56,000 bases of DNA from a filamentous cyanobacterium CCP2 (lineage in GTDB: Bacteria > Cyanobacteriota > Cyanobacteriia > Elainellales > Elainellaceae), in contig PVWD01000008.1 in the NCBI GenBank assembly GCA_003003615.1, positions 1 to 56,000 on the forward strand, in the 5' to 3' direction. A program made the translations under genes and the position numbers. Position 1 is the first letter of the stretch. Each line of letters starts with the position of its first letter. This document shows positions 31,748 through 54,111 of this stretch, one piece after another. The notes beneath the pieces are model-generated. The model was not told the DNA's origin. It worked only from the letters and a program-made list of their open reading frames with translations, and did no database searches.

Positions 31748-31936
31748 CAAGACAAAAATACTACGATCGTCACCTTCTCTTCTAAATCTTTCACCCAAAA
31801 GCCCAATCCCCGGTCATGTAACCCATCCCCCTTTCCTCAAATGTCTAAACAGCGGCTTTACGAATTTCTAAAAGATTGCGCCCAGCCAGGAGAAACCCCA
31901 GCCAAGCGCAATTTAAGAATTTGGATTTGATCAATG

Positions 31937-32085
31937 GGAATAATGTTCTTTACTGGCAATGGCTGAAACCTTTGATTTTACGTTGCCGTTTTCGCTGTCT
32001 CTTAGAACTAAAGTTCTTTGCTAGAGGTAGTATTCATCCAAAGCCTTCTGAAGTTGATGTAAATAAAGTTCTTTACTGTCACACA
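31937..32085 (+). repeat. Three TnsB-site-like direct repeats (candidate Tn7-like transposon end)
   Basis: A motif A(A/C)TAA(A/T)GTTCTTT(A/G)CT occurs three times; its GTTCTTT core lies at 31945, 32013 and 32068. On the complement the last copy reads TGTGTGACAGTAAAGAAC, resembling the Tn7 terminus (TGT, then GACAATAAAG). Three spaced sites in about 140 bp is how a Tn7 left end is built. The polarity places the element body to the left of 32085, away from the tns genes, which is unexplained. Confidence 0.5.
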
Positions 32086-32199
32086 GATATAATTGCTTAT
32101 TGATTAAATTTTAACAAGGCTCATGTGAAAACGCCCCAAACCTACAAGAACCTGGGTACCATCATCAAGAGTGTACTCACACTTCTTGAGGAAGATGAG

Positions 32200-34170
32200 C
32201 TAATCTTGTCTAAAAATAGATTCAAGTTTACCTAGAGCAATATCAATCGCTTCTTGTATTTCCTTTGAACGTGAAACAGCATTTCCAATACCGAAGCCGA
32301 AACCACTTTTTTTAATAAACAATGTTCTAGAGGGAAGGATTCCCGCCTCCTGAAATTGTTTCATTGTCCAGTCAATTCGGCGCATAGCAGCTTCTGCATA
32401 AGTTTCTGTAAATTCGTCGAGGCTCTGCTTCGTTAAGGGCAATTTAGACAAATTATGTTGTATGCGCCCTGATTGCCCCATTTGTCTGCCAATCACGTTT
32501 ACTGTAATGCGTTTAGGACGCGATGGATCATTTCGTAAGCGTTGACCTACATCGCGAACTAAGACCGCCAGTTCACGATCGATTTCTTCCCAGTCTCTTC
32601 GAATCACTTTCTTAGGATTTCTTATTTTGTTCTTCTTGGATGGAAAATTAATATTCAACCAATCTCTATCATTTCCATATATAAAGTCATAAGCTTTTCG
32701 GTATTTTTTCTTGAAGTAGCTTCTGGTTTTGTCTGGATTTTTTGATTTGGCTTCTAAAAGCTCATCCCTATATTTTTTCTGTATATTAGACGCGTTTTCT
32801 TGAGTCAGATCCTGAGCTGAGTAGTCAATAGGTCTTGCTCCTTTTGTACCCTGTCTATATAAATCAAGTTTTAAGTGATAAGCATATTGTTCAAGAGCTT
32901 TTTCCCTCATGCGAAATATCTTAATGATTTCGCAAAGTGTCACATCTGAATTGTTCCAGTATCTAGTGAACTTTTGTTCCCATTGCTCTCCACGTTCTAC
33001 AACTCCAGAATAGCGAAACTTATCTTCTGGCAACTTGTCAGGTCCAAGTCGGTAATAAGAAAAACCACACCCACACTTAAACAAACCTGTTGGTTGAGGT
33101 CTGGGGCGACCATCTTTATATCTGATTAACTGATACTCCTGAATCACAGGTAGGTTGAAGAATTTACAGGCGTGATTTAAGCAAGGCCAGGGTCCATCAC
33201 CAAAGGGTTTAATTTCAAGAGGCAAACTAAAAAAATCTTTGGCCGAATAACCTAGAAATCTTATCAAGAGCAAATGATAAAGTGGATTAAGTGATTTTTG
33301 CGAAGTTCCAATTTGTAATATTCGATCAAGCCAACTCTCAAGAATTCCCTCTCTTATTTCACAACCAAGTTGCTGAAGTAGCTCCCTTCCATAAAACTTT
33401 TCAAAGCAGTTTACCAATTCAGTCATATTTCTTATTCTACGCCCACTTGATATTGCAAATCCTTTCTCAGCAAGTAATCTACGATAATTTTGGGATAAGA
33501 AATTTAATCCAGGAGCTAAATTTTCCTGATTTAATAGCCAAGAAATATCCTGTGCAATATTGAGTAGGATAATATGCTTGCGGTTTGATAAATCTATAGG
33601 TCGCGCCGGTACAATTTGTATTTCATTTTCAGCTACAAAATAATAAGATGGCCTACCCCCATTTCTAGGATTAATATGGCTTCTCTCCAGAAGAACTTGA
33701 TGTGTAGAACATACTTCCGCTCCTGGGCATTGATGTGGACGATGCCAGTAAGTCTCGTTAAATTCTTTTCTATCATTTTCTACACAGAGTGGGCAAAACT
33801 TCAAATTTTCCTGTCGTTGATTTACTAATATCCCTAATCGACCATAGATTTTCATGCCGTTACGATGGGTCATATCATTACGCGCAAGAGCAATTTGTTC
33901 ATGTCTAGAGAAAGGAACATATATGGGTAGCAGCGTTCCTCCGTTAATGAGCTGATTGACTGTAAATGGGTGTCCAGAGGGTAAAGTACTGACAAAATTC
34001 TCAAGATGACTAGGAAAATCAACAACTGCCCTGGTAGATGCACCAAACAGACTTTGTGATAAGTCATTATCAGCTGGATAACGTAATACTTCTTGATAAC
34101 GTCCAAACAGACTATAAAGCAATTCGTCAGGATAGCGGTTTAAACAAAACCCAAGAGTATGTTTTGTCAT
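32200..34170 (-). CDS. tnsD: TnsD/TniQ-family target-selection protein
   Basis: A 656-aa TniQ-family protein, long enough to be a TnsD-type DNA-binding target selector rather than the short TniQ of CRISPR-guided elements. The N-terminal TniQ region opens with NRYPDELLYSLFGRYQ. It carries a zinc ribbon with C126-x2-C129 (FCPLC), an intervening YWHR, and C154-x2-H157 (VCSTH). A second Cys cluster appears near residues 325-375 (CLNHAC, KCGCGF). The long basic C-terminal half probably reads the attachment site. It is last in the minus-strand tns operon, 53 bases after tnsC. The target site is not identifiable here. Confidence 0.85.
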   Translation of the reverse strand: MTKHTLGFCLNRYPDELLYSLFGRYQEVLRYPADNDLSQSLFGASTRAVVDFPSHLENFVSTLPSGHPFTVNQLINGGTLLPIYVPFSRHEQIALARNDMTHRNGMKIYGRLGILVNQRQENLKFCPLCVENDRKEFNETYWHRPHQCPGAEVCSTHQVLLERSHINPRNGGRPSYYFVAENEIQIVPARPIDLSNRKHIILLNIAQDISWLLNQENLAPGLNFLSQNYRRLLAEKGFAISSGRRIRNMTELVNCFEKFYGRELLQQLGCEIREGILESWLDRILQIGTSQKSLNPLYHLLLIRFLGYSAKDFFSLPLEIKPFGDGPWPCLNHACKFFNLPVIQEYQLIRYKDGRPRPQPTGLFKCGCGFSYYRLGPDKLPEDKFRYSGVVERGEQWEQKFTRYWNNSDVTLCEIIKIFRMREKALEQYAYHLKLDLYRQGTKGARPIDYSAQDLTQENASNIQKKYRDELLEAKSKNPDKTRSYFKKKYRKAYDFIYGNDRDWLNINFPSKKNKIRNPKKVIRRDWEEIDRELAVLVRDVGQRLRNDPSRPKRITVNVIGRQMGQSGRIQHNLSKLPLTKQSLDEFTETYAEAAMRRIDWTMKQFQEAGILPSRTLFIKKSGFGFGIGNAVSRSKEIQEAIDIALGKLESIFRQD

Positions 34171-34223: not shown

Positions 34224-35804
34224 CTAAACAGGCGATCGCATATAACCTGCCTCTACAAGAGATTTGTGGTAAGGGATTGAACCATCTTTAGCCTGGAATA
34301 ACGCAATTTCCAAAAGGCTTTTTCCTGTAAAATCCACACTGAATGTTTGAGTTTCAGACTCCGCTACTTGCGAGGAAGTAGAGCCTCCTTCTGCTCCTTC
34401 TTGCATTTCATCACCGGAATTCTGTTCGAGCTGTGTCGTATCCTCTTCCGAATCGCTCTGCTCCTGCTCAGCTTGAGTTTCTGGCGACGCAACGTTGATA
34501 TTTTGATCCATCAATTTCCTGTGAATTTTCTTGATGAATGATTCTTTATCTATGAAGATATCCTCATAGTCCTCAAGAGCGTCCCAATCTTTTGCTCTAA
34601 GAGCCTTGAGCATTGGACCTGGTAGATTCAAATCGTCTTTTGCTGCCGATCGGATTATTCCAACTGTAATTTTCTCAACCCCGGAGACGATCGCTCGAAT
34701 CTGAGCAAGCATGTAGATCTTGACAGCGAAATCTATAATGCCAAAGCTCTCTTCGTGAAGCGCATTTTTTAGCTTCCGAGTTAAGGGAGAGACCTGTGTA
34801 GTATACTGATATTTCCAAATGGACTCTACAAACAAATCCCAGCACTCATCCAAATCCATTGGCTCCCAAACAGCGTCCCCTAAGCCAGCACCACGACGCG
34901 TCTGATGCATCTTCCTACTCAAAATTGATTTTGCTCTAGGAGTGCCGACAAGTACTACTGGAATTTGCATTCTATTTCTCAGTTCAACAAAGAAATCCAG
35001 CATTTCTTCATGACCGCCACTTCTTAACTTACTTAAGAATTGAATTTCATCGACTACTAATACGCCAATGCAATGTATAGCAGCTATACGAGCCATATCT
35101 GGAACCATGTCCCTAGCTGCTCGTTTATCTTTGCAGTAACGGGAATAGTAGTCTGTTCCCAATAGACTATCAATCGCTTTAAAGAAACTGAGAACAAGAC
35201 CCTTAATTGAACCATCGTAAGGGCAATCAAGTTTGAGCCATACAATTTGTTTAAAGATGAAATCTTTACCCTTGTAATGAGTGTGGCAGATTACTTGCGG
35301 AAACCAAAGTAGAATTTCCTCAATAGTGCTTGTTTTCCCCATACCAGGTGTACCTAGAAATGTGAATCCCGCAAGTTTAGAGCGCCGAGATTTTTCTTTA
35401 AAGGGTTCACCGCGACGTAAGGCTTCCACCTTAGAATTTACATCTCGAAAGTGTTTTGGAGAGAGAGGATTACGATGTCTCAATCCTCCACGAATGAGTC
35501 GCTCAAATTTAGAGAAAATATCTGTATGGATATGCCAAGGCTTAAAAATGTCAAATAACGAGAGCGTTAAATGAATACGGTCGTGAGGTGGTAGATTTCG
35601 TTCCTCCTCGTCATAATCAGGTGAGCAAATCAAAGCCATTCCTTGCTCTTCCTCTGACAAGGTAGGAGGAAGAGGTTCAATCAGTGGATTGTCTCGATAA
35701 ATAGAAACAGTTTGCTCATTGTACACAGCATCAATAACATCCCCCATTAGAAGAGCAGAAGGTTCCTTACTCACTGATTCCTGGACAACTGATTTTTTCT
35801 TCAT
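34224..35804 (-). CDS. tnsC: TnsC-type AAA+ transposition regulator
   Basis: A 526-aa AAA+ ATPase. Walker A is GTPGMGKT (151-158), Walker B VLVVDE (248-253), with sensor-like text VVLVGTPRAK near residue 290. In Tn7-like elements TnsC assembles on target DNA and bridges the target selector to the TnsAB transposase. The C-terminal 100 residues are acidic and low-complexity (EEDTTQLEQNSGDEMQEGAE) before a conserved final segment. A ribosome binding site (GAGG, 8 bases upstream) supports the start. Longer than many cyanobacterial TnsC/TniB proteins, consistent with a TnsA-containing, TnsD-guided system. Confidence 0.88.
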   Translation of the reverse strand: MKKKSVVQESVSKEPSALLMGDVIDAVYNEQTVSIYRDNPLIEPLPPTLSEEEQGMALICSPDYDEEERNLPPHDRIHLTLSLFDIFKPWHIHTDIFSKFERLIRGGLRHRNPLSPKHFRDVNSKVEALRRGEPFKEKSRRSKLAGFTFLGTPGMGKTSTIEEILLWFPQVICHTHYKGKDFIFKQIVWLKLDCPYDGSIKGLVLSFFKAIDSLLGTDYYSRYCKDKRAARDMVPDMARIAAIHCIGVLVVDEIQFLSKLRSGGHEEMLDFFVELRNRMQIPVVLVGTPRAKSILSRKMHQTRRGAGLGDAVWEPMDLDECWDLFVESIWKYQYTTQVSPLTRKLKNALHEESFGIIDFAVKIYMLAQIRAIVSGVEKITVGIIRSAAKDDLNLPGPMLKALRAKDWDALEDYEDIFIDKESFIKKIHRKLMDQNINVASPETQAEQEQSDSEEDTTQLEQNSGDEMQEGAEGGSTSSQVAESETQTFSVDFTGKSLLEIALFQAKDGSIPYHKSLVEAGYMRSPV

Positions 35805-35916: not shown

Positions 35917-36315
35917 TTAGGTGTCTAAATTCCCTTTTTGTTTTATTGCCTCATGGACAATTTCTTCCACAGCAAGCTTAAATTTGTCATGAGAATGTTG
36001 CGTTCGTTTTTTGATGTCTGCCGTTCGTTCTTTGATGTCCGCCAAATAACTTCTGGCTTCAAACCAACTTTGGCCAAGCATTGGTCTGTACTGAGGAGTC
36101 AGATGGCAAACCTCCTCATCACCATTGGCGGCAATAAGATAAACCACATCTATACACCGAGGATCGTAAGCTAAAGCGCCCTTACTCCTCACACCAACTC
36201 TTGCGCGGGTAAACCATTGCTCATCAATTGCAGTTTTGCAGGTGTAGTACAGACCTTGAAAGGCAATGCCCCTTGAGGTGATAGAAGCTGTAGCTTTTGG
36301 CAGAAGGTTCAGCCG
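35917..36315 (-). pseudogene. C-terminal continuation of the TnsB-like paralogue, beyond an in-frame stop
   Basis: Immediately after the TAA that ends the 226-aa TnsB-like frame, the same reading frame resumes with RLNLLPKATASITSRGI, then LYYTCKTAIDEQWFTRAR and YDPRCIDVVYL. This aligns with the beta-barrel/C-terminal region of the intact TnsB (RLNLLPSAEASVTERGIYF..., YYTCELAIKEEWFVRAR, YDPRDLSNVYL). No frameshift is needed: the two pieces are separated only by one stop codon (36316-36318). Either the gene carries a nonsense mutation, or the stop is read through. Confidence 0.65.
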
Positions 36316-36996
36316 TTACCTTTCGAATGGTGCAGCACGCAGAGAATTGCTGCTACTGCAAAGTCCCCAATTCCATAAGTCGATGGGGACCAAGTCGGTG
36401 TGTTGATCCGTTTGTTCATCTATTAGGTAAGGTTCTAACTTCTGATGATTGTTGTAGTGGAGAATGTATTGAACTAACAGGCGTCGAAATTGTTTGAGAT
36501 CAAGAATTCCATTTAATTGGCGATCACTAGCACCACAAGATCCTAACGAAAGGATGTCGTGACCAAGACTAGCTTCAATCTTTGCATTTTGTGCCGATTG
36601 CCTAGAATTTGGAGATTTGACATGAACACCAAACTCGAGAAGAGAGTTGGAAAACCATTCGGTGGGAGTGAAGCCAAGCAACAAAGACTCACAGATGTGG
36701 TGACAAGGATAATCAGCATCACTGATCTCGATTCCAAGCTTCCTGCAAAACGAGATTTTTTCTGCCAATGCGTTTTCAAATGCCAATAAACATCCTAATT
36801 GGAAACCTTCCTCTAAACTTACATGGGAACCTACAATCATCTGGCTCCATCGATCAAGTACTAAATGAACAGTAGGTTTTCCGAGTATCCGAGAACGATC
36901 AATTGAACTCGCAATCTGGTGGTCGGTAGAAGCACTGGCAACAAACCATTCTGAATTTAGAGCAGGCAAAGATTGATTTGAAAAAATGCCATTCAT
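36316..36996 (-). CDS. TnsB-like protein lacking catalytic aspartates
   Basis: A 226-aa protein homologous to the RNase H-fold core of the adjacent TnsB. Ungapped alignment over the first conserved block puts Ala where TnsB has catalytic D309 (WFVAS against YQIDA) and shares DR-R---GKP-V--V-D-WS-MI-G. The second catalytic Asp (LVGDRGE in TnsB) is replaced by LLGFTPT, while the Glu region (KIEA) is kept. The N-terminal DNA-binding domains of TnsB (about 300 residues) are absent. The gene has its own strong ribosome binding site (AAGGTGA, 5 bases before ATG) 14 bases after the tnsB stop, so it should be translated. It may be a dead accessory subunit or a decaying duplicate. Confidence 0.7.
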   Translation of the reverse strand: MNGIFSNQSLPALNSEWFVASASTDHQIASSIDRSRILGKPTVHLVLDRWSQMIVGSHVSLEEGFQLGCLLAFENALAEKISFCRKLGIEISDADYPCHHICESLLLGFTPTEWFSNSLLEFGVHVKSPNSRQSAQNAKIEASLGHDILSLGSCGASDRQLNGILDLKQFRRLLVQYILHYNNHQKLEPYLIDEQTDQHTDLVPIDLWNWGLCSSSNSLRAAPFER

Positions 36997-37010
36997 AGTT
37001 CACCTTGCAA

Positions 37011-39233
37011 TTATTTACTGTACTTCTCAAGATTCTTAGGACGAGGAACGTATTCTTCATCGTCATCGTCATCTTGACTAATTTGTTGATTTGGCGGTAC
37101 TTCTACTTGAGGCATGGGAGCTTCTGGGCAATTTGGTCGCCATGCTTCAGAGCTTCGTAAATCATCACGGGCTTCCATGCGATTTGGGCGTATTCCCGAA
37201 ATTTGTGCAGTTTTGCTACGTCCGTCATAAGCCTTTTGTGTTTGCTCTGTCGCAGTATTAATGATGTGATCCATTTGGGCGTGATAATCTGCTACCCCTT
37301 GGCGATCACGAGTTTGTGCCGCATGAGATGCTTGCCCTTTTAGAGCGAGATAATCTGCAGCTTCGTAAAAATTTCGCCCCTGAAAGATCTTTGACCGCGG
37401 AAGAAGGTAACAAACTTCCACCGTCTCGAAATGTTTGGGACGGAGATAAACATTTGACAGGTCGCGAGGATCGTAGGCAATGGTAATTTTCCATCTGCCC
37501 TTGTCCCTCGCTCTAACGAACCACTCCTCCTTGATTGCCAACTCGCATGTGTAGTAAAGTTCTAGCTTGTACTGCCCGTAGTAGAAATAGATTCCACGCT
37601 CAGTTACAGAAGCTTCGGCAGATGGCAACAGGTTAAGGCGAATGAGATCAGTCGGCATTTCATTCAAGCAACCAGTGCGATTCGCAATTCCCCAATTCCA
37701 AAGATCAAGTGGATAGGGAGCGACCTGATCCCGAATCATGTCCTCCTCGAATGGGTAATTTTCAAGGCGACGATATGTATTGTGCTTGAGAACAATATGT
37801 CCTATTAATTGCCGGTACTGAAAGATGTCTAGCGCTGCATCTAGACGAGGATCTCTTTCCCCCCGCTCAAGAGGTTTGGCTGTGCCTCCGGGAACGAAGT
37901 CTTCGTGATCATCTTGAGCGAGGTCATGGATCTTCTCAACTTGACACTTCCAATCTGCTCGAAAGGGAGCCGTATTATCAACCCGAATATTTAGCGATGA
38001 ATCTGCGAGGTTATCGGCGTGTTTACTTAAAAGTTCGCCGCGATCGCCGACTAAAGTATTACAGATGCCTTGGCACGGATACTCCTCCTCTGTGATGTCA
38101 ATCCCAATATTTTTATAAGCCTCAACTTTGGGTGTGAACGCATGCTCAAGGGCCATCATCATACCTAGCCAGCTAGGTCCCTCCAGACCTACGTACCAGC
38201 CAGTTATCATCCAACTGAATTCATCTACAACAAAGTAAACTACAGGTCTCCCAATGCGTCGGTTGCGATCGAACCAGCTCACTAGATGAAGATTGCCGAT
38301 CATCGCATCGATTTGATAGCACGACCCGGGACCCCGGGATCTTTTGGGAGAACCAGAAATATCTCTGTTTTCTAAATCAAATTTACGTCTGCCTCTTCTA
38401 TCAATAAGAACTTTAGAAAGTTCAAATCTACGCTCAAACCAATATCGGAATTCACCAATAGTTGGCAGAGTGCTGGTATCTTCAGGAAGAATGGGCGTGA
38501 GAACATCCTTCTTGAACTCATAACCAACGTTGTAGTACTCCTCTAAAGTTCTTTGATATGCAACTGTGAGCGATTTTTTCTCAGAACCCAGGTAAAATTT
38601 TCTAATTCCTCTATCAAATTTCTCCTGGTCACTCGTTGTGACGTTGACTGAGGTCTGTTTGCCGGTTTGCTTCGTAACATCACTTTTACGACCTCTTTTA
38701 TGTGGTCCTGGCTCTGCCTTTACGCGAGTTTCTCCTGGAGCGCCACAGTTAAAGTAGAGTTGAAGAAGGGCATTCTTATTCTGTCCTCTTTGCCAAAAAG
38801 CTCTTAAATAATTTCGTACGGTTACTTCTGAAACTGTCTGCCTACCATATTTTTCTGAAGGCTTGCACCAAAGGCGTTCAATAGAAGCTGCAATCTCTAT
38901 TAATCGCTGTCTCTCAGCAGGAATAAAGGCTGAAATTCCACTGTCTATAATTGGAGAAATAACTTCCCAAGCTTGATCTCTACGAGTACGATGCTTATCA
39001 AGATATTCCTGAGAAGGCAACAAGAGGGAAGCGTATGGATCAATTTGTAGAATTTCAGCACTTCCCGACATAAGTGCCATTTCTAAGTCACCATATTTCC
39101 ACCAATCTGGAAGTACCTTCCCCACCAACTCAATAACAATAATATGAGGCTTTTCAATATGAAGAACTCGGATTTTTTGTTGTTCCGAGTCATTCCTGTG
39201 CAAACGCAAAATCTGATTTTTAACGAGTGACAT
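37011..39233 (-). CDS. tnsB: TnsB-type DDE transposase
   Basis: A 740-aa Mu/Tn7-type DDE integrase. The catalytic triad is D309 (YQIDAMIG), D397 (LVGDRGELLS) and E433 (QVEKIHDL), with the expected roughly 35-residue D-E spacing. The N-terminal 300 residues hold the end-binding helical domains (FWQRGQNKNALLQLYFNCG is a typical segment). The C-terminal beta-barrel is followed by a charged tail (QDDDDDEEYVPRPKN) that in TnsB contacts TnsC. It cuts and joins the 3' ends of the element. The start was placed at ATG 39233; an upstream TTG at 39248 directly after the tnsA stop is the alternative. All catalytic residues are intact, so it is probably functional. Confidence 0.92.
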   Translation of the reverse strand: MSLVKNQILRLHRNDSEQQKIRVLHIEKPHIIVIELVGKVLPDWWKYGDLEMALMSGSAEILQIDPYASLLLPSQEYLDKHRTRRDQAWEVISPIIDSGISAFIPAERQRLIEIAASIERLWCKPSEKYGRQTVSEVTVRNYLRAFWQRGQNKNALLQLYFNCGAPGETRVKAEPGPHKRGRKSDVTKQTGKQTSVNVTTSDQEKFDRGIRKFYLGSEKKSLTVAYQRTLEEYYNVGYEFKKDVLTPILPEDTSTLPTIGEFRYWFERRFELSKVLIDRRGRRKFDLENRDISGSPKRSRGPGSCYQIDAMIGNLHLVSWFDRNRRIGRPVVYFVVDEFSWMITGWYVGLEGPSWLGMMMALEHAFTPKVEAYKNIGIDITEEEYPCQGICNTLVGDRGELLSKHADNLADSSLNIRVDNTAPFRADWKCQVEKIHDLAQDDHEDFVPGGTAKPLERGERDPRLDAALDIFQYRQLIGHIVLKHNTYRRLENYPFEEDMIRDQVAPYPLDLWNWGIANRTGCLNEMPTDLIRLNLLPSAEASVTERGIYFYYGQYKLELYYTCELAIKEEWFVRARDKGRWKITIAYDPRDLSNVYLRPKHFETVEVCYLLPRSKIFQGRNFYEAADYLALKGQASHAAQTRDRQGVADYHAQMDHIINTATEQTQKAYDGRSKTAQISGIRPNRMEARDDLRSSEAWRPNCPEAPMPQVEVPPNQQISQDDDDDEEYVPRPKNLEKYSK

Positions 39234-39248
39234 AACAAGTTCCGACAA

Positions 39249-40025
39249 TTAGAATTCAAGTGGCGGTTGCAGCAGAAAGTTGAGTTTTTTTGAAGTGTCA
39301 ATATTTTGCCTGATATCAACTATCCATTTTCGAGTAGCAATTAGATACCAAGCCAATGCTAAGCAGCTACCATGTTTTAAGGCAAGTTTAGTGTCACAAT
39401 TCTCTGCAACTTTAGCTAATGATTCATCGTTTTCTAAAATCGATTGAGTCAATTCAGAATAAGCTTGAACCAATAAGCTCTCCCGAATAGGTGGCTTTGC
39501 ACCCTCGTGCATATACTTACGTATATGTTTCACATTTTCTACCAAATCTGTTGAGATCTCCTTCTCTGTCATAATCATGAAGCGAATGTTGCGAGCTTCC
39601 CAGTATCTCCGCCGGATCTCTAACTTTTCAAGATGCCTTTTTCCTGATTTAGTTAAAGGATTTAGTTCCTCAAGAGGTTTGACCTCAATTGCAAAATGGT
39701 CTTCGCCAAAATTTGTTTCTATACAAGCAATAAGATCTGTAGTTGCAGTTACCGGCTTCTGCGTCTTTTGATCTACTGGGTGTTTAATATCTAACTGCTC
39801 TGCAATCCACAGCGTTTCTGTTAAGTCAAGCTCGACTTGCATATAGAGATCGGAGATCTTAGTCGCCCATTCGATCATGCAAAAGACCGAGAGTTCAAGC
39901 CCACTCATCACGTGATAGGTTCTTCCCGTAATGTGGCTTTTGATCCGACTCACTCGCCCTCTTGAAGAGAACTTCCGAACTGTCAAATTCGAGCGATATT
40001 TTGGCTGTTCATCTTTGTGTGTCAT
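39249..40025 (-). CDS. tnsA: TnsA-type endonuclease
   Basis: A 258-aa protein with the restriction-endonuclease-like TnsA core. Catalytic residues by family pattern: E52 (FCMIEWATKISDLYMQVEL), D97 (TATTDLI) and K116 (AIEVKP), spaced much like E63/D114/K132 of Tn7 TnsA. The C-terminal half (KRHLEKLEIRRRYWEARNI) matches the end of the nuclease domain and the TnsC-contacting domain. TnsA cuts the 5' strands so that the element moves by cut-and-paste. The ATG at 40025 was chosen; a TTG at 40052 would add nine residues without a binding site. tnsB begins just after the stop. Confidence 0.88.
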   Translation of the reverse strand: MTHKDEQPKYRSNLTVRKFSSRGRVSRIKSHITGRTYHVMSGLELSVFCMIEWATKISDLYMQVELDLTETLWIAEQLDIKHPVDQKTQKPVTATTDLIACIETNFGEDHFAIEVKPLEELNPLTKSGKRHLEKLEIRRRYWEARNIRFMIMTEKEISTDLVENVKHIRKYMHEGAKPPIRESLLVQAYSELTQSILENDESLAKVAENCDTKLALKHGSCLALAWYLIATRKWIVDIRQNIDTSKKLNFLLQPPLEF

Positions 40026-40109
40026 AATTTTCTCTCTTACGAACCGAGGCAAAATAGCTTCAGCAGGAGTGCGTCTAATGCCTTTGCAATTGTTGTTCCG
40101 ATTGCAAAG

Positions 40110-40514
40110 TTACTGCAACCCTTTCTGCTCATAACCTAGGTACTTGCCAACAATGAGACGTGAGTACGGGTCTATCACATACACTAGATGCGGATGGTAG
40201 GTTGTCGTCTCTTGTTTAGACATAATTTGCTCAGATGCAGATGGAGAAAAAGATCTTAGAAATTTGGAAAAATCTTTTAGCTGAATCCATACTCTTAATA
40301 CAATGTTTCGTATTGAATGCTGAGCAAATTGTCTTGTCCTCCCACCTCTGAGTTGATTTAAAGAATTTCGCAAGCTTGCAAAGCAGCATTTCGGCGATTT
40401 ATCCATCATGCTCTTGCTTGAATTTCTACCTGATACCAGGTGAACATCAAACCGGGTTGAACCGACATAGTAGATCCTCAATTCGGGAAGATTCGGCTGC
40501 TCTTCTTCAAACAT
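40110..40514 (-). CDS. Truncated TnsB-like protein upstream of tnsA
   Basis: A 134-aa protein with a strong ribosome binding site (AGGAG, 7 bases before ATG). Residues about 12-32 (LRIYYVGSTRFDVHLVSGRN) align with the first strand block of TnsB (CYQIDAMIGNLHLVSWFDR), with Gly in place of the catalytic Asp. After an unrelated insert of about 65 residues, HPHLVYVIDPYSRLIVGKYLGYE matches the next block (RPVVYFVVDEFSWMITGWYVGLE). It then ends. It therefore contains only the first half of an RNase H fold, with an insertion, and cannot be catalytic. It leads the tns operon. Remnant or accessory protein: undecided. Confidence 0.55.
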   Translation of the reverse strand: MFEEEQPNLPELRIYYVGSTRFDVHLVSGRNSSKSMMDKSPKCCFASLRNSLNQLRGGRTRQFAQHSIRNIVLRVWIQLKDFSKFLRSFSPSASEQIMSKQETTTYHPHLVYVIDPYSRLIVGKYLGYEQKGLQ

Positions 40515-40846: not shown

Positions 40847-42523
40847 ATGGCTTCATATAACTTAAAACTAGCCTTTGAGCAATTTACCCAAGCGGACTCG
40901 GTCAAAACCAAGAAGCGGCTTTCGACAACTTTGAAGTTCGTACTTAAGCAATATGTTCTGCCTCTATGGAAAGGTCAGAAATATAAGGATAGGGAAATAG
41001 AAAGCCATTTTGAGGGCTGCCTTGCCAAGATTTCGATCGAAGAATTTAGGCATCCTCCTTTGATTGAGGATGTTGTGGCACATAAACTACAGGCGCTTGT
41101 AACTGATGGAAAGCTGAAGAGGGGTACGGCTGACAACTATCGTTCTGCTCTAAATAAATTTATTAAATGGATGCAGAGTCAAGATTGGTATCTCGAAGCT
41201 GTAGGAACAGAAAATGTTGAGGCAGAGTCTTCACCCTTTAAAAGCCGAGATTTGAGAACTGCTCGCAAGAGACAGAAAAGAACACGCGTAAAAATTTTCG
41301 ATTTTTATCCTGTTAAAATACCTTTGAGATTAGAAAGGCAAATTGAGGCTGGACCAGATGAGTTAAAAGTTGAAGATTTTGGGGTTCAGCTTCAGCATAA
41401 ATTTCAGCAACGACAATGGAGATTGCCCACCACTGGACTTCGCTGCTTCTACTTATTGAAACCTGAGCTTTTTCAAGAAACACCTTCTAATTCTTCTCTG
41501 GAAAAGCAAGTAAAAGACTTAGTGGATGACATTCACCAGTTTCTTTGGTGGAAGAGAATAGTTCGGCAACAATCGTTGGATCAATTAGATTTAGTGGATA
41601 TAACTAACCCTGATCTATTATCCGAATTTACGGCATGGGGGCATGACAAGAGAAGATGTCTTAGAAACGGAGCAGCAGGTGTTTTAAGTTTTGCCTTAAA
41701 GGTTTCACAATGGTTATACCACTTAAACTCAAGTGATCTATTCCTTCAAGATATTGAGGAGTTGAACTTGCTTTCAGAAATGTTCAAAGAAAACTTTACT
41801 ACTAAAAGCACACCTGCAAAAGATTCCAATCATGTTGTATTAGAGGAGTACCTATCCATTGAGGAATGTGAAAAGATTCTCTTGGAACTACGACAAGACT
41901 GTGAACCTAATGATGTGAGGGGATTACCTCGAACACATAGAGCAATTATGTTGTCTTGGCAGCGCTATTTGATTAGTGGCTTAACATACTATTCAGGATT
42001 ACATCCTGCAGAAATTCGTCAACTTAAGATTCAACAGTTAATCTTTAAAGAGGATATTGGTGACTGTGTAGTAATTTACTTAGATTTTCAAGAATGTACA
42101 TGGCAAAGTCGGCATGTTCTTCTTCCTAAATTCATAGTTGCAGATCTAAATGACTGGATGACTATTTGGAGAAATAGAGTTAATCCTAAACATGATTTTG
42201 TATTCTTCTCTTTGGGCGCTAATAATAACCTAGATACTGAAGGGCAGCCTTTAGACAGTACAGCGGTTAATGCAATTCTATCTAGAGCTATATACAAACA
42301 TAGTGGGAAGATGTTGGCACCATCTATATTGAGACGGTTTGCTGCACTCCGTCTAGTTCCTCTATCTTTGCTGAGTAAATCGCTGCTACACGAAATGCTT
42401 GAAATTGATCTCTCAAATACCTCTTCAACAAAAGGAATCAAGAATTTTTTTAGTCAAATACTTCTACGAGATAGAATTATCAGAGACTTAGGTCTGTCTT
42501 TTAATGACTTTACAGAAGATTAA
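40847..42523 (+). CDS. Tyrosine-recombinase-like protein without an intact catalytic set
   Basis: A 558-aa protein with integrase-like architecture: an N-terminal SAM-like helical part (GTADNYRSALNKFIKWMQSQ, about 90-115) and a C-terminal phage-integrase-like domain from about residue 370. The first catalytic Arg is replaced: GLHPAEIRQL has H386 where the family has Arg in GLR--E. The H-x-x-R box reads S493-I-L-R496. The segment after it shows neither the third His/Trp nor a nucleophilic Tyr. DNA binding is plausible, strand cleavage unlikely. It is transcribed divergently from the tns operon across an inverted repeat. It could regulate or dock the element. Confidence 0.6.
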   Translation: MASYNLKLAFEQFTQADSVKTKKRLSTTLKFVLKQYVLPLWKGQKYKDREIESHFEGCLAKISIEEFRHPPLIEDVVAHKLQALVTDGKLKRGTADNYRSALNKFIKWMQSQDWYLEAVGTENVEAESSPFKSRDLRTARKRQKRTRVKIFDFYPVKIPLRLERQIEAGPDELKVEDFGVQLQHKFQQRQWRLPTTGLRCFYLLKPELFQETPSNSSLEKQVKDLVDDIHQFLWWKRIVRQQSLDQLDLVDITNPDLLSEFTAWGHDKRRCLRNGAAGVLSFALKVSQWLYHLNSSDLFLQDIEELNLLSEMFKENFTTKSTPAKDSNHVVLEEYLSIEECEKILLELRQDCEPNDVRGLPRTHRAIMLSWQRYLISGLTYYSGLHPAEIRQLKIQQLIFKEDIGDCVVIYLDFQECTWQSRHVLLPKFIVADLNDWMTIWRNRVNPKHDFVFFSLGANNNLDTEGQPLDSTAVNAILSRAIYKHSGKMLAPSILRRFAALRLVPLSLLSKSLLHEMLEIDLSNTSSTKGIKNFFSQILLRDRIIRDLGLSFNDFTED

Positions 42524-46443: not shown

Positions 46444-48477
46444 ATGGTCGAGAGGTTAAATAATCATTTAGAGGGGCAGGGTGTTATACGGGGGCTATCG
46501 GGTCATTACCGCAGTGGAGCTTCCAGCCTTGGTAAAGAATTTTTTGCTCCCTGTCTCAAGTATTGTTCAGCATATCGACGAGCCGTTGGTTATTTTTCTA
46601 GCAAAGCATTACTTGCGTGGTTGGAAGTGTTGCCTCGCTTTGCTACAGAGTCCGTAACAATTCATCTACTCATTTCTCCTGAGTTATCCGACGAAGATCG
46701 TGATGCTTTAGAGAAAACACTCAACGAAGAGGAGCGTCAGCAACTGAGAAGAGTTTCAGTTGAGCGATTGGTGCAAGAAACTCTAGATGACTCATCCCTG
46801 CCCAAGTCTATAAAAGCTAGAGTTCGACTGTTTGCCTGGATGGTAGCCAATGATCACCTCATTCTCCGGTTTGCCTTTCCAGAGCACATCGAACAACCTG
46901 GAATTTTTCATGAGAAGATTGGCATTTTTCAATTTTCTTGGGGTGATCAGGTTGCGTTCACTGGCTCAGCAAATGAGTCAGAACATGGCTATGAGCGTAA
47001 CTATGAATCAATTGATGTCTACCGAAGCTGGATTGTTGGTGACGAAGAGCGAGTTCGGATTAAGCAGGAGCAGTTTGAGGAAGCCTGGTCAGCAAAGGCT
47101 GTTGGGTTAAAAGTATTACCACTATCTCCTGAATCAGCCGCATTGATTCGCAGTAAAGCTCCTAAGGAAAAACCAATAGTTGCTCCCAAAAATGGCTTTA
47201 ACTTACCAAGTGTAAAGGAAAAGCCAACTGGTTATGGACATGAGTCAGAAGAACCCCCAAACCATATCAATATTAAACATCAGTGGCGGCATCAGGATGA
47301 AGCAGTCGCTAAGTTTCTGGCAGTGAAGCACGGGGTTTTAGAAATGGCAACGGGCACAGGCAAAACCCGCACTGCTATTCAAGCCCTGACAGCTTTGGAT
47401 ATGCAGGGGCAAATTGATGGAATTATTATCAGCACTGACGGCACCGATTTATTGGATCAGTGGCGCAAGGAAATTGAATCCTGGGCGATTAAACGCCCGC
47501 AGCCTTATCGGGTGTTAAGGCATTTTGCCCAGCATCATGAATTGGGTGAATTTGCCTTAAATCCGAAGCGGGCTATCCTGGTTATCTCTCGCGAACAATT
47601 GGCTTCTTTATTCAGCCGTCTTGAACCTGCTCAAAAAGAGCGACTGATTATTATCCAGGATGAGGTGCATGGCTTGGGAAGCCCATCACTGCGATCGCAG
47701 TTAGCGGGTCAGCATCAGGCATTTGGCTATCGATTAGGGCTGAGTGCAACACCAGAACGAGAGTATGACCAGGCTGGGACGCAGTTTATTTTTGATGAAA
47801 TTGGTGAGGTTTTCTTTGAGTTTGGCTTGGAGGAAGCGATCGAGCGCGGAATCTTGTGTGAGTTTGACTATATTCCGTTAACATACCTCCTCACGGATGG
47901 TGATCGCCAACGCCTGCGGCAGGTTTATGCGAAACGTTCGGCACGCCAGCGAGAGGGTAGACCCATGACGCAGCAAGAATTATGGACAGAACTTGCACGG
48001 GTCTATAAAACCGCTGAGAAAAAGCCGGAAGTCTTTGCTGATTTTCTACAACAAAATTCCCAGATTATTGAATCCGCCATTATTTTTGTGGAGGACAAGG
48101 CTTATGGAGAGCCAATTTTAGAAACACTGCACACCTACACGCACCGTTATCGCACCTACTATGCAGAGGATGATCGCCGTAATTTAGTCGATTTTGCAAA
48201 AGGCAAAATTGATTGCTTGGTCACCTGTCACCGAATTTCACAGGGGATTGATATCCGAAATCTAAAAAATGTCATTTTATTTTCGTCCGCACGGGCACGC
48301 CTAGAAACCATTCAGCGAATTGGGCGATGTCTACGCTCTGATCCTAATTTGCCTGATAAACGAGCAACAGTCATTGATTTTGTGCGATCGGCGGAGGATG
48401 ACGAGAGTGAATTTAATGCAGATGACGATCGGTGTATGTGGCTGTCTGAGCTTTCGCAAGTTAGGAGGGTGGAGTAG
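46444..48477 (+). CDS. PLD-nuclease / DEAD-type helicase, Dnd-linked restriction enzyme
   Basis: A 677-aa fusion. The N-terminal phospholipase-D-type nuclease has H156-x-K158 (FHEKIG), then GSANESEHGYERNYE with S175, N177 and E188. A superfamily 2 helicase follows: Walker A ATGTGKT (302-308), DEVH (406-409), GLSATPERE (motif III) and QRIGRCLR (motif VI). The whole matches the helicase family annotated as the DNA phosphorothioation system restriction enzyme, which travels with dnd genes. It presumably cleaves unmodified DNA together with the next three genes. The stop is followed immediately by the start of the next gene. Confidence 0.8.
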   Translation: MVERLNNHLEGQGVIRGLSGHYRSGASSLGKEFFAPCLKYCSAYRRAVGYFSSKALLAWLEVLPRFATESVTIHLLISPELSDEDRDALEKTLNEEERQQLRRVSVERLVQETLDDSSLPKSIKARVRLFAWMVANDHLILRFAFPEHIEQPGIFHEKIGIFQFSWGDQVAFTGSANESEHGYERNYESIDVYRSWIVGDEERVRIKQEQFEEAWSAKAVGLKVLPLSPESAALIRSKAPKEKPIVAPKNGFNLPSVKEKPTGYGHESEEPPNHINIKHQWRHQDEAVAKFLAVKHGVLEMATGTGKTRTAIQALTALDMQGQIDGIIISTDGTDLLDQWRKEIESWAIKRPQPYRVLRHFAQHHELGEFALNPKRAILVISREQLASLFSRLEPAQKERLIIIQDEVHGLGSPSLRSQLAGQHQAFGYRLGLSATPEREYDQAGTQFIFDEIGEVFFEFGLEEAIERGILCEFDYIPLTYLLTDGDRQRLRQVYAKRSARQREGRPMTQQELWTELARVYKTAEKKPEVFADFLQQNSQIIESAIIFVEDKAYGEPILETLHTYTHRYRTYYAEDDRRNLVDFAKGKIDCLVTCHRISQGIDIRNLKNVILFSSARARLETIQRIGRCLRSDPNLPDKRATVIDFVRSAEDDESEFNADDDRCMWLSELSQVRRVE

Positions 48478-48684
48478 ATGTCCAATTTAGATCATGAGGT
48501 GATTAAGGCAGTTCAAGAGGCAGTCCGCGAGGCAGGGCAGCCCGATAAAGTTGCCAAGCGCATTGAGGCATGGCTGAATGCGATGAGCACCTCTGAACTC
48601 AGTGCCACCGATGAGCAAGGGTATTTGGAAAATGTGCGGGCTGCGATAACCGTCAACGTGACTGGAGGCAGTGATGAGGATTGA
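48478..48684 (+). CDS. Small acidic protein of the Dnd-linked operon, 68 aa
   Basis: A helical, acidic 68-residue protein (MSNLDHEVIKAVQEAVREAG). Its start directly abuts the helicase stop and its end overlaps the ATPase gene by 11 bases, so translation is coupled on both sides. No known motif. The position suggests a bridging subunit between the helicase and the SMC-like ATPase. Confidence 0.65.
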   Translation: MSNLDHEVIKAVQEAVREAGQPDKVAKRIEAWLNAMSTSELSATDEQGYLENVRAAITVNVTGGSDED

Positions 48685-50647
48685 GTTAGCAGGTTGGAGT
48701 AGTGAGGGGTTACGCTGTCCCGACATTGAAATTAAATTAATGACTGACGACAGGATCGCCCCTGTATCACTGATCCAGATGCCCAACGGCACGGGTAAAA
48801 CCACAACTCTGACGATGATTCGAGCCGCTATGAGTGGTGAAGCTCAGGGGTGGACTGCCGGGAAAATTAAAAGCCTACGCCGTCCAGGTGAATCACATTC
48901 AGAGGGTAGATTTATTCTGGATTTGAGAGTTGATGACCAACCCTTGACGTTTGAATTAACTCTAAATTTTGAGGCTGGAAAAGCTGAATATCGAACGACT
49001 TCGGTGGGAAGCGGAGGAATTAAACCGGGTTGGGAACCACCGCCAGAGGTCAAAAGATTTCTCGATCCTCGATTTGTCCAACTGTTTGTATTCGATGGTG
49101 AATTTGCCGATAAACTGCTGGATTCTAATGAATCAGAGGCATCCAAAGCGATCGATGCCTTATTTCAACTCTACTTGCTGCAAGACATTCAGCGAATTGC
49201 AGAAGATTCTTGGGAGGCAGCCACTAAAAATAAGACTGCAAAGGCTGAAAAGGGGTTGAGTCAGCGCAGGAAAAAAGTTGATACGTTAAAAGCCCGTATT
49301 GCTCAGGTGACAGAGGCACGAGATAAAGCGAGTGCGGAATTAGAAACTCTGCAACCTGAAATTGATGCACTGGAGCAGAAAATCAGTGAGCAGATTGGTA
49401 CTGAACAAAGCCTGCGTGAAGAATTTGAGGCAAAGAAGCGGGATGAAATTAATGCCCGTAACCAAGTTGAAGTTTCAGCCTCAGAGGTCATGGCACGTGT
49501 TCGTCAACCCCATTTATTGCACGAAGCCTTCGCCCAGTCATTGAGTGAGTTAAAGCTTCAGCTAGATCGTTTACGGCTACCTGCTAGTACCTCTAGCCAA
49601 TTTTTTAGTGAGCTTTTGGAGGAAGAAGAATGTATTTGCGGTCGCCCGTTAGACAGCCATTCACGCGAAGTCATCGGCAAACGGCGTGAACTCTACTTGG
49701 CTGAAGATACATCGGGTATTCTGAACGCACTAAAACAAGACATTCATGACCTGGTACAACAAGATGGAAATGAGACAGCGGCAGATTTAACCCAGAAACT
49801 AGAGCAACTAGAGCAAGCAGTTTCGGTAAGCAAATTTGCGGAAACCGCTGTCAGAGTGCTGGAGCAAGAGCTAATTGATAGCGGCGATGACGAGTTGAGG
49901 GTATGGACTGAGGAGCGTGACCTGAAAACTAGACGCAAACAAGAGCTAGAGAATTTTCTGAGGGACATTAAGCGGGCTGCAAGCTCCAGCGATGATGAAA
50001 AAACATTCTGTTTAGCATCCCTTAAAAAACAATTGAAGGAAGCGGGAGACGATCTGGCAGAAATCACAGGCACACTGGAGCTTCGAGCTAAAACGGATGT
50101 TTTGTTGGTGATCGCTGATCTAGCCCTGAAAAAAGCCCAGGCAAATTTGCGGGTAGCGATCGCAGACGAATGCAATCAGCGACTAGAAAAGGTGCTGTCG
50201 CGTGACCCAATTCGGATTGAAAAAATCGATCGCTCTCTCAAACTCCGTAATCAGGAGGGCGCTAGCGTTGGGCAAACCTTATCTGTTGGCTATACATTCC
50301 TGACAACCCTGTTGAGCCGAGGACAACACCAATTTCCGCTAATTGTGGACAGCCCAGCAAACCCACTCTCAATGGAGGTACGGCGGGAGATCGCTAAGCT
50401 AATCCCAACCCTGTGTAAGCAATTTGTCGCGTTTACGATCTCGTCAGAACGGGCTGGGTTTACAGATGTAATCCATACCAGTTCTGGTAATAGAACCAGA
50501 TTTCTGACTCTATTTAGGCGTACAGCAGGAACCGAGGGGTTAGTGGAATCACTTCCTGACAAAGGAGTTACTGAGACCTCGAATGCTGTTTTGGTCGAAG
50601 GAAAGGAGTATTTTGACCGATTTGATCTGGATGAGGCAGAGGGCTAG
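48674..50647 (+). CDS. SMC/Rad50-like ATPase with coiled coil and CxC hook
   Basis: A 657-aa ABC-type ATPase. Walker A is PNGTGKTT (37-44). An N-terminal lobe with LFVFDGEFADKLL is followed by a coiled coil (about 180-290), a hinge with a CxC pair (C320, C322 in EECICGR), a second coil, and Walker B in FPLIVDSPANPLS (D559). The FDGE stretch and hinge resemble DndD and other defence ATPases. The start was set at ATG 48674 with GGAGG 5 bases upstream, rather than the GTG one codon earlier. It is probably the ATPase of a Dnd-dependent restriction complex rather than DndD itself, which normally follows dndC. Confidence 0.75.
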   Translation: MRIELAGWSSEGLRCPDIEIKLMTDDRIAPVSLIQMPNGTGKTTTLTMIRAAMSGEAQGWTAGKIKSLRRPGESHSEGRFILDLRVDDQPLTFELTLNFEAGKAEYRTTSVGSGGIKPGWEPPPEVKRFLDPRFVQLFVFDGEFADKLLDSNESEASKAIDALFQLYLLQDIQRIAEDSWEAATKNKTAKAEKGLSQRRKKVDTLKARIAQVTEARDKASAELETLQPEIDALEQKISEQIGTEQSLREEFEAKKRDEINARNQVEVSASEVMARVRQPHLLHEAFAQSLSELKLQLDRLRLPASTSSQFFSELLEEEECICGRPLDSHSREVIGKRRELYLAEDTSGILNALKQDIHDLVQQDGNETAADLTQKLEQLEQAVSVSKFAETAVRVLEQELIDSGDDELRVWTEERDLKTRRKQELENFLRDIKRAASSSDDEKTFCLASLKKQLKEAGDDLAEITGTLELRAKTDVLLVIADLALKKAQANLRVAIADECNQRLEKVLSRDPIRIEKIDRSLKLRNQEGASVGQTLSVGYTFLTTLLSRGQHQFPLIVDSPANPLSMEVRREIAKLIPTLCKQFVAFTISSERAGFTDVIHTSSGNRTRFLTLFRRTAGTEGLVESLPDKGVTETSNAVLVEGKEYFDRFDLDEAEG

Positions 50648-50652
50648 AAATT

Positions 50653-51141
50653 ATGGCATTCAAGAACTTTCGGATGCGTAGAGATGCTGAAAACTGGTTC
50701 TCTCACATTCAGGATCAGAAACCGATTCGGACTAAATTTGACCTCTATTATTTTTGCTTGATGGTAGGGCTTGCAACTGGGCGAAAAAGCGAGCCAGCCA
50801 AACGTTGTCCTGAGTTTACCGATTTTACGGATAACTTTGTCAGTGAATATAGACCCTACCAACGGTTAATTATTGGGTTGCTAATCAGGGCAGAGCTTTC
50901 CCGCCTGGGGGTCAGTGTGATGGAGAAGGATGAGGTTCGTAAGATCTTCGTTGATTTAGTCAACCCTCAAAACCCGACCAACTTGACTGACATGGGAATG
51001 GACAGGCTCAACGAGTACTCTAGCGGCGGTTACGACTATCTGGCAGAGAAGCTCGACTCAAAACCCTATCATGTGGAAGAATTCCTCAGAACCTATGCAA
51101 AATTATTAAGGGGCGCGATCGAGCAAAATTCGGATTGGTGA
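50653..51141 (+). CDS. Dnd-linked small protein (DNA phosphorothioation-associated protein 4-like)
   Basis: A 162-aa protein starting MAFKNFRMRRDAENWFSHI, with KFDLYYFCLMVGLATGR and a closing helix FLRTYAKLLRGAIEQ. Length and position after the SMC-like ATPase (5-base gap) fit the family annotated as DNA phosphorothioation-associated protein 4. It does not resemble DndE, which is shorter and differs at its N-terminus. Last gene of the operon 46112-51141; a hairpin follows. Role unknown. Confidence 0.6.
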   Translation: MAFKNFRMRRDAENWFSHIQDQKPIRTKFDLYYFCLMVGLATGRKSEPAKRCPEFTDFTDNFVSEYRPYQRLIIGLLIRAELSRLGVSVMEKDEVRKIFVDLVNPQNPTNLTDMGMDRLNEYSSGGYDYLAEKLDSKPYHVEEFLRTYAKLLRGAIEQNSDW

Positions 51142-51216
51142 TATTTTTGGATGTAGAAGCAATTATCTAACTTCTTACATAAGACAGATACAAACAACTG
51201 ATGAGGCAACTTTAGT

Positions 51217-51239
51217 CTAGGTTTCATGTTTCAACCTAG
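51217..51239. terminator. Hairpin between convergent genes
   Basis: CTAGGTT (51217-51223) pairs perfectly with AACCTAG (51233-51239) over a 9-base loop, followed by CTTTGTT on the plus strand and preceded by TTTAG. It lies between two convergent operons and could terminate both. Confidence 0.5.
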
Positions 51240-51254
51240 CTTTGTTAACAAACA

Positions 51255-53291
51255 TCAAAAATCATCTAGCTTAATTCCTAGTTTATTAGGAATTTCTTCA
51301 TCTTCAAAATCATTTGAAGAAGTCTCTTCATGAATTAATTGATCATCAGGTGGTTTGGGGAAATCAGGTAACCCAGCCGCAAAAACAGCACTAAATCTAC
51401 TACGAACAAGCTCATCTTTTTGTTTATCACTCAATTGATCTGCATCTCTACCAAAGAAAGCACTTGTATCAAACCCTCGATACAATGTTTCAAATAACTT
51501 CTTACAATCTGGCCACTGAGTAGTATTTTTGTCTGCTGAAAAGAAGTTGAGAAGTTTTCGAGGAGATGTATGCCAAATATTATTGGACGCATCCAGTTGA
51601 ATTTTTCGCGTGCCATAATACCAAAGGCTGAGGAGAGAGAAAATTTTATCTTCTACAGTTTTCGCAACTTTAATCTTGTCATTTCCTGGGTTTAAAGCTA
51701 CAAAAGTCCAGAGACGAAAAGGATTATCAAGGAGTGTAGCATCTAGTCTAAGAATTTGATCATCATATAACTGATCAAGAAAAGTTAATAAATCACTAAT
51801 GCTACCAAGATGGTCTTCTTTATATTTAAACTCAATCACTTTTCCTAGTCGAATCATTGCTTTTTGAAAGATAGCTTTGAACGCCCATTGCTCTTCTTTC
51901 ATTTTTGCAATATCTTCTTGGGGCTTCAAAATCTCTCGCTTCAACCATTCACTATCTCTAGCATTCTCCTGATCACGGATAATGCCTTTATGCTTACTAG
52001 TTTGAGCTTGAAAATTAGCAAAAACTCCCTCAATCAAATTTTTCTCTCGGGCGTAAGCAAGCAGATTTTTATATGGCTTGAATTCTATCAACAGCTTTAT
52101 GAGCCAGGGATAAAAATTTATTCTAAACCCTTCAACGGCTGATTCAAGATAGTTGTCAGGTAATCGTGAAAAGGGAGTTTGTGGCTCCCCCTCTTCATCG
52201 CAGCAATCCTCCCGATAGTATTGACTAAGAGATCTACCTTCGTACTCTACTTCACAATTATTGATACCTAAAGCAAGATTAACGCTATCAATAAACGACT
52301 TAACGTGGTTCCGTTCCATTGGATCTTTTGGTAGTTGGAGATCCAAGAGGTCAGAAATAAGCAGATCAAGATGCACAAGGGAGTTAATATAATACGATGT
52401 ATCAAATCGATTAGAGTCGTCTTGCCATCGAACTAGCGATAAAGGGATTAAGTAGTCGCTATCCTCAGCAGTTTTTTCAGTGAGAAGAGTTCTGACGCAA
52501 CGGGCATTAATACTTCTGTCATCTAAAATTAGTTCGCGTGCTCTATCAACCGTTTTTGCATTTTTGTTGAGATCAGTGAATAACTCGCGAGATATTCCTC
52601 GTATAGAATAATCAGTCTGATTCTGATTGTTTTGAAAACCTGCTTCGGGATGAAGCAAGATAAAAATGACAGGAATCTTCGTTTGCTTTTCAGTTTTAAG
52701 AAGAGTACCGGCTCTAAAACTTGTATCCTCCCTAAAGGTTCTTAAAGCCCATAATCTATGCTGGCCATCTACAGCAACAGCGAGAACGCGATCCTCATCC
52801 CATCGCAATCTCGCTGATAGTCCGAAAGATGCAAATTGTACGCCACCAAAATTTGAAACTTCAATTCCTTCTTGTTTCCATTGAGCATCTTCAGTATCAG
52901 AACTATCCCAAGGAATCGCTGGCGGCTCAGTAGGTTCTAATTCGTCGAAAGTGTCTAGAATTTTCCCGTCAACGTTTCTAGGCATCAAAACAATAGTAAT
53001 TGCATTAAAAAACTTCAACTTTCTTGGGTCTAGCAAGTAGCCTTTAATAATGTCGTTTCTAACCCTCGTTTCATCGATCTCACGTTGAAATAGTTCTTTA
53101 AGTGACCACTTTGTTTCAATTGAGGGAGGAACTTGTTCTGCAATTCTTAATTCATCAATTGCTCTATCAATCTCAAGGAGAGAGAGAAAATAGGGTAGCG
53201 ATATTCCTTCAGACAGGGTATACGATCCAGTCAAGCCATAGATTGGCTTGTTAAATCTTGCCTTTTGTTGTCCTGTTGAGATGATGAACAT
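51255..53291 (-). CDS. Large DGQHR-domain protein (DndB-related)
   Basis: A 678-aa protein with the signature DGQHR at residues 175-179 (AVAVDGQHRLWALR), the motif that defines DndB-like proteins. It is almost twice the size of DndB; the C-terminal half has no recognised domain. A typical DGQHR-family continuation follows: TKIPVIFIL, then ELFTDLNKNAKTVDR. The ATG at 53291 has GGGTGA 5 bases upstream; a GTG at 53300 overlaps the upstream gene's stop. It is paired with a GIY-YIG gene and transcribed opposite to the neighbouring dnd genes. AT-richer than the flanking operons. Probably a DNA-modification-linked regulator or effector. Confidence 0.7.
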   Translation of the reverse strand: MFIISTGQQKARFNKPIYGLTGSYTLSEGISLPYFLSLLEIDRAIDELRIAEQVPPSIETKWSLKELFQREIDETRVRNDIIKGYLLDPRKLKFFNAITIVLMPRNVDGKILDTFDELEPTEPPAIPWDSSDTEDAQWKQEGIEVSNFGGVQFASFGLSARLRWDEDRVLAVAVDGQHRLWALRTFREDTSFRAGTLLKTEKQTKIPVIFILLHPEAGFQNNQNQTDYSIRGISRELFTDLNKNAKTVDRARELILDDRSINARCVRTLLTEKTAEDSDYLIPLSLVRWQDDSNRFDTSYYINSLVHLDLLISDLLDLQLPKDPMERNHVKSFIDSVNLALGINNCEVEYEGRSLSQYYREDCCDEEGEPQTPFSRLPDNYLESAVEGFRINFYPWLIKLLIEFKPYKNLLAYAREKNLIEGVFANFQAQTSKHKGIIRDQENARDSEWLKREILKPQEDIAKMKEEQWAFKAIFQKAMIRLGKVIEFKYKEDHLGSISDLLTFLDQLYDDQILRLDATLLDNPFRLWTFVALNPGNDKIKVAKTVEDKIFSLLSLWYYGTRKIQLDASNNIWHTSPRKLLNFFSADKNTTQWPDCKKLFETLYRGFDTSAFFGRDADQLSDKQKDELVRSRFSAVFAAGLPDFPKPPDDQLIHEETSSNDFEDEEIPNKLGIKLDDF

Positions 53292-53296
53292 ATTTC

Positions 53297-53950: not shown

Positions 53951-54073
53951 AAAACAAATCTCCCGCCGCTAAAGCTAAAAGCACCTTTGTAGCCAGTATT
54001 CCCTATTCCTCAACACGCAGTAGCTCTTAATTCTATACATTTTATAAAGATTACCAATCTCGTTTCTTAATAG

Positions 54074-54109
54074 CATACTATGTATGTTGAAATAAACATG
54101 CATAGTATG
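54074..54109. promoter_or_regulatory. Operator-like inverted repeat abutting the dndB start
   Basis: CATACTATGTATGTT (54074-54088) and AACATGCATAGTATG (54095-54109) form a 15-bp inverted repeat with one mismatch and a 6-base loop. Each arm is itself nearly palindromic (CATAC-TAT-GTATG). It ends 2 bases before the ATG, leaving no room for a Shine-Dalgarno sequence. It may be bound by DndB, known elsewhere to repress its own operon, or may fold in the mRNA. Confidence 0.6.
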
Positions 54110-54111
54110 TG

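Follow-up and report, generated by a model that had tools for sequence, protein, structure and literature searches.

A Tn7-like element in the 56,000-nucleotide stretch of cyanobacterial DNA analysed here (the window) carries, between tnsB and tnsC, a gene that, judged from its sequence, is a pseudo-transposase derived from TnsB. Two of the three catalytic residues are replaced, the end-binding domains are absent and a single in-frame stop codon interrupts the reading frame. An intact homologue is found in a second genome of the same family and another genus (G009). We tentatively read the intact gene as one that formerly acted with TnsB, as a non-catalytic partner or a dampener, and that is now broken in the window; the decay of a duplicated transposase gene is considered nearly as likely.

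The interrupted gene and its element

All four genes of the element, tnsA, tnsB, tnsC and tnsD, lie on the minus strand as one operon-like array (Table 1); the draft genome comprises 528 contigs. By analogy with a characterized system (PMC9371665), the C-terminal tail of TnsB, EEYVPRPKNLEKYSK, would sit at the position of the TnsC hook. The TAAAGTTCTTTACTG-like repeats beyond tnsD are probably TnsB sites of the transposon end on that side, and they fall in a block (31925-32099) that is 91% conserved in G009. The opposite transposon end was not found in the window and is perhaps located outside the 56-kb contig.

Table 1. Features of the Tn7-like element, in window coordinates
Feature	Position	Strand	Remarks
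ORF134, small gene before tnsA	40110..40514	(-)	relatives in G009, G142, G001
tnsA	39249..40052	(-)	Pfam PF08722, PF08721
tnsB	37011..39248	(-)	745 codons from TTG (ATG at codon 6); D314, D402, E438 intact
Shine-Dalgarno AAGGTGA upstream of paralogue	37000..37006	(-)	identical in G009
TnsB paralogue, predicted dead; 359-codon full frame with one internal stop	35917..36996	(-)	ATG at 36996, stop at 35917; intact 353-aa homologue in G009
226-aa ORF: predicted dead RNase H-like domain and following helices	36316..36996	(-)	
In-frame TAA, codon 227 of the paralogue	36316..36318	(-)	CAA (Gln) in G009 copy
91-aa ORF: tail of paralogue frame, end of middle domain and oligomerisation helix	35917..36192	(-)	
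tnsC (AAA+)	34224..35804	(-)	Pfam PF13401, PF05621
tnsD (TniQ domain and TnsD domain)	32200..34170	(-)	Pfam PF15978, PF06527
Three TAAAGTTCTTTACTG-like repeats (at 31941, 32009, 32064), beyond tnsD	31941..32078	.	

The paralogue starts 14 bp past the tnsB stop codon, upstream of tnsC, and the strong ribosome-binding site that the earlier note placed just after tnsB is present in both genomes. The TAA at codon 227 is the sole internal stop of the window copy and splits the frame into the two shorter ORFs. These were considered as two separate genes, a possibility that was rejected in favour of a single 359-codon frame. The dead RNase H protein of 226 residues proposed in the earlier note is accordingly a real ORF, but it makes up only half of the gene. 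The difference between the two genomes at codon 227 is a C-to-T change. A working paralogue subunit is doubtful in the window element, because the stop removes the middle and oligomerisation domains. No recognisable remnant of a TnsB tail was found in the 112-bp spacer before tnsC. Past the stop, the divergence of the window copy from TnsB is not clearly greater than that of the G009 copy, which implies either that the stop is recent or that the tail has always been loose.

The G009 copy is 89% identical to the window frame, and the two differ in length by two indels, both in frame. It lies directly after a tnsB that is 93% identical to the window tnsB, and its presence rejects the idea that the paralogue is private to the window genome. 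The G009 contig with tnsA, tnsB and the paralogue keeps the spacer that precedes tnsC and then runs through about 95 bp of unrelated sequence to the contig end. Another G009 contig carries tnsC (97% identical) followed by tnsD (71%); a few bases ahead of tnsC this contig, too, turns into unrelated sequence and ends. The unrelated ends of both contigs open with a similar stretch (GAGTTACGCAGTTGAG on one side and, in the inward direction, GGACTTACGCAGTTGG on the other), the pattern expected of the two ends of one insertion sequence. We therefore infer an insertion sequence between the paralogue and tnsC in G009, in which case the gene order across the contig break would be that of the window. 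Conserved synteny, which the earlier note proposed as a check, is supported on the tnsB side by the position of the G009 gene right after tnsB, but it extends to two carriers only.

Other genes near the tns operon were also noted. The relatives of ORF134 each lie upstream of tns genes, and in G142 the relative shares 4 bp with a tnsD. The two closest copies of ORF134 give an omega of 0.85, not different from 1. A profile search with this family returned, after its own members, TnsBs alone. That ORF134 is related to the N-terminal half, or first strands, of the RNase H fold in TnsB is no more than a suggestion, because the hits are not independent, their best E value is 0.002, hhalign gives 6% probability and the model of ORF134 is poor (pLDDT 43). 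Divergent from the tns operon, on the plus strand at 40847-42523, is a gene for a 558-aa tyrosine-recombinase-like protein, with a 48% identical counterpart in the same place in the distant element of G142. Positions 46444-55179 encode PbeA, a PbeC/DndD-like ATPase and DndB, phosphorothioate-linked defence genes that are probably cargo of the element; the segment 46462-48948 is 95% identical in G009.

Homology to TnsB and loss of the active site

The earlier note described a catalytically dead TnsB-like gene at this position, and sequence and profile comparisons support its homology to TnsB. The intact homologue matches E. coli TnsB (7PIK) with E=3e-36 in phmmer, and the paralogue matches a TnsB profile with 100% probability and E=9e-55 in hhalign. 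Identity to the nearest TnsBs is 33–37% over most of about 340 residues, which excludes chance similarity, and is 33% to the TnsB of the same element. In the phylogeny the paralogue is placed as sister of the local TnsB with weak support (62/70), a position that bears on whether it arose by duplication within the element or by capture from elsewhere.

The homology spans TnsB residues about 305 to 670. The N-terminal end-binding domains are absent, as the earlier note had it, with the similarity beginning at about residue 305. The match is not limited to the first RNase H block, as had been proposed; it continues through the middle domain into the oligomerisation helix. The Mu-transpos_C domain (PF09299) is recognised in the intact copy at 24.4 bits against a Pfam cut-off of 21.7. 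The intact copy consists of the RNase H core, the middle domain and the oligomerisation helix. The protein stops at that helix with no linker or tail, and the C-terminal TnsC hook is missing.

Both copies show the same state of the DDE triad predicted from the window alone: D314 is replaced by Ala and D402 by Gly, and E438 is kept (residues counted from the TTG of tnsB, equivalent to D309, D397 and E433 in the numbering of the earlier note). From 19 TnsBs, 55 conserved positions were defined in the shared region. The paralogue keeps 2 of the 11 that lie within 8 residues of the triad and 28 of the 44 elsewhere (Fisher p=0.015; the 8-residue cut is the most favourable of four, the other cuts giving p=0.026–0.064). 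Judged by these positions, residue loss in the paralogue is concentrated at the active site.

An AlphaFold2 model of the paralogue has a mean pLDDT of 71. Its Z scores are 22–23 against 7PIK and against the short ordered chains of V-K CAST TnsB strand-transfer complexes (8aa5 chain C, 297 residues numbered 196–522, and 7svw chain A, 296 residues), a fold match to TnsB that is partly built in because 15 of the 16 rows in the model's input alignment were TnsBs. For the intact copy against residues 196–522 of 8aa5 chain C, VIA-align gives a Z score of 22.6. In the 8aa5 strand-transfer complex two protomers are catalytic and two are structural; in the structural protomers the catalytic residues are misplaced, NTD1/2 are unseen, and an ordered OD ties the complex together (PMC9527255). 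According to the model, the intact paralogue covers just the segment that is ordered in the non-catalytic TnsB protomers.

Selection and distribution

Under a codon model with kappa, the window and G009 copies yield an omega of 0.51 for the paralogue (likelihood-ratio test against 1, p=0.009), a figure that, like all those on selection in this gene, comes from one pair of sequences. The earlier note had raised the prospect of a private gene with neutral codon substitutions; a second carrier and this omega were found instead. Simple counting between the two copies gave a dN/dS of 0.36, with a strong transition bias, and a neutral simulation of the pair gave P=0.014. Codons 1–226 have an omega of 0.41 (p=0.003) and the codons after the stop an omega of 0.89 (p=0.8), indistinguishable from neutral, with overlapping intervals for the two parts. 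For reference, the same model gives 0.16 for tnsB and 0.25 for tnsA. On average the paralogue appears to be under purifying selection, with a constraint that is modest and weaker than that on tnsB. Its branch, 1.41 long compared with 0.62 for the local TnsB pair, points to fast earlier evolution.

A search of about 390 cyanobacterial genomes (the class and related orders) revealed no carriers beyond the window and G009, all other matches being TnsBs, and there were none in genome contigs, viral contigs or phages. Plasmid searches returned only matches below 60% identity, and those with a name were TnsB-like transposases. Junctions were also surveyed at 61 further TnsB loci, most of them in other bacteria, and both genes could be placed in 55. 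At these 55 junctions the tnsC start ranges from 302 bp before the tnsB end to 18 bp after it, leaving no room for the paralogue. A truncated second TnsB after tnsB in G068 (L022:7275-7775, a 192-codon frame) was considered as the same gene and rejected; it keeps D, D and E. In G388, a 567-aa ORF (L060:5015-6718) fuses part of TnsA to the catalytic part of TnsB, without the TnsB N-terminal domains, and from its composition looks like a deletion derivative. The earlier note knew of no described Tn7-like element with such an arrangement. We likewise found no comparable dead TnsB paralogue in the open-access literature, which does not prove that a description is absent.

A different partial TnsB gene is well supported in three Paenibacillus Tn7-like loci (L113:3290-3658, L118:3240-3617 and L119:3284-3661). 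Here a separate gene some 2.4 kb upstream of tnsB encodes 122–125 aa that correspond to the TnsB middle domain and nothing more. Purifying selection on it is clear (omega 0.17, p=1e-7).

Possible roles and relation to known systems

It is quite possible, though we stop short of calling it probable, that the intact gene served TnsB as a non-catalytic partner, or damped it, and has since been broken in the window. The G009-type protein would join the TnsB assembly in place of the two non-catalytic structural protomers, or compete for that place, and its presence there would tune transposition, most likely downwards. Speaking for this reading are the intact copy in another genus, the matching contig ends in G009, the rejection of neutrality, the in-frame indels, the shared ribosome-binding site, the loss centred on the active site, and the fold match to structural protomers. 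Set against it are the restriction to two carriers, the weak constraint, the reliance on one sequence pair and the broken window copy. The dead transposase-fold subunit proposed in the earlier note thus fits the G009 copy but not readily the interrupted window gene, whose function is probably lost or reduced, since the C-to-T stop would deprive the product of its middle and oligomerisation domains. As tnsABCD are open despite the break in the window copy, the element can be maintained without the paralogue protein.

Almost as likely as a partner of TnsB, and a serious possibility in its own right, is the decay of a duplicate. In that case an old tnsB copy, left behind when the gene was duplicated in tandem or when a newer tnsAB cassette replaced it, would have lost both its ends and its active site and would now be drifting, with a low omega that reflects past selection or chance. 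The stop in one of the two copies, the long branch, the neutral appearance of the codons after the stop and the small number of carriers would all follow from decay. Simple drift fits less well with the rejection of neutrality for the whole gene and for codons 1–226, with 353 codons still open in G009 after long divergence, with a ribosome-binding site kept in both genomes and with the preferential retention of residues far from the active site. The apparently stronger constraint before the stop than after it could instead mean that the truncated 226-aa product is itself functional in the window, perhaps by binding TnsB or DNA as a small dead RNase H domain. This is very unlikely: the omega intervals overlap, a single truncated allele is known, and the product is without the middle and oligomerisation domains, the parts with which structural protomers keep the complex together (PMC9527255). 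The chance is slighter still that the paralogue, which adjoins tnsC, is a target-immunity or other TnsC-directed factor. In V-K CAST, TnsC recruits TnsB through a 15-residue hook at the TnsB C-terminus (PMC9371665), and recruitment needs this hook; its absence from the paralogue speaks against the target immunity that the earlier note had suggested.

If the intact gene works as a partner of TnsB, nature would here have divided between two genes the catalytic and structural roles that a single TnsB polypeptide fills in the solved complexes. The role of the structural protomer would then be directly testable, and Tn7-like and CAST transposition would have a possible natural means of damping or tuning. 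If it is a relic, it is an example of a duplicated transposase gene decaying inside an operon. A wider proposal, which we regard as rather doubtful, is that in some Tn7-like elements a separate dead gene takes over the non-catalytic role within the TnsB tetramer, as a dedicated structural or inhibitory protomer. Were this so, then together with the Paenibacillus middle-domain gene, partial TnsB proteins would be recurrent regulators of Tn7-like transposition.

With the TnsB of Tn7 and Tn7-like elements (7PIK, 8AA5, 7SVW) the paralogue shares the RNase H core, the Mu-transpos_C middle domain and the oligomerisation helix; it differs from active TnsB in having neither the end-binding domains, nor the first and second Asp, nor the TnsC hook. 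The transposase inhibitor (Inh) of Tn5 is an N-terminally shortened transposase with an incomplete end-binding part, and is believed to enter mixed complexes that are inactive. It arises from a second start within the transposase gene and keeps the catalytic domain. Unlike Inh, the paralogue is a diverged, apparently dead, separate gene and not an internal-start product. Inh is mentioned in PMC3347997. TnsB protomers 3 and 4 (PMC9527255) present the same segment, with a DDE fold not in catalytic shape, the middle domain, NTDs that are not engaged and an ordered oligomerisation helix. Those protomers, however, are the same polypeptide as the catalytic ones, whereas the paralogue is encoded separately. 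With TnsF of Tn6022 a Tn7-like element has likewise taken a catalytically inactive recombinase into service as an accessory protein, but TnsF has a tyrosine-recombinase fold and is a target selector essential for transposition (PMC10293859).
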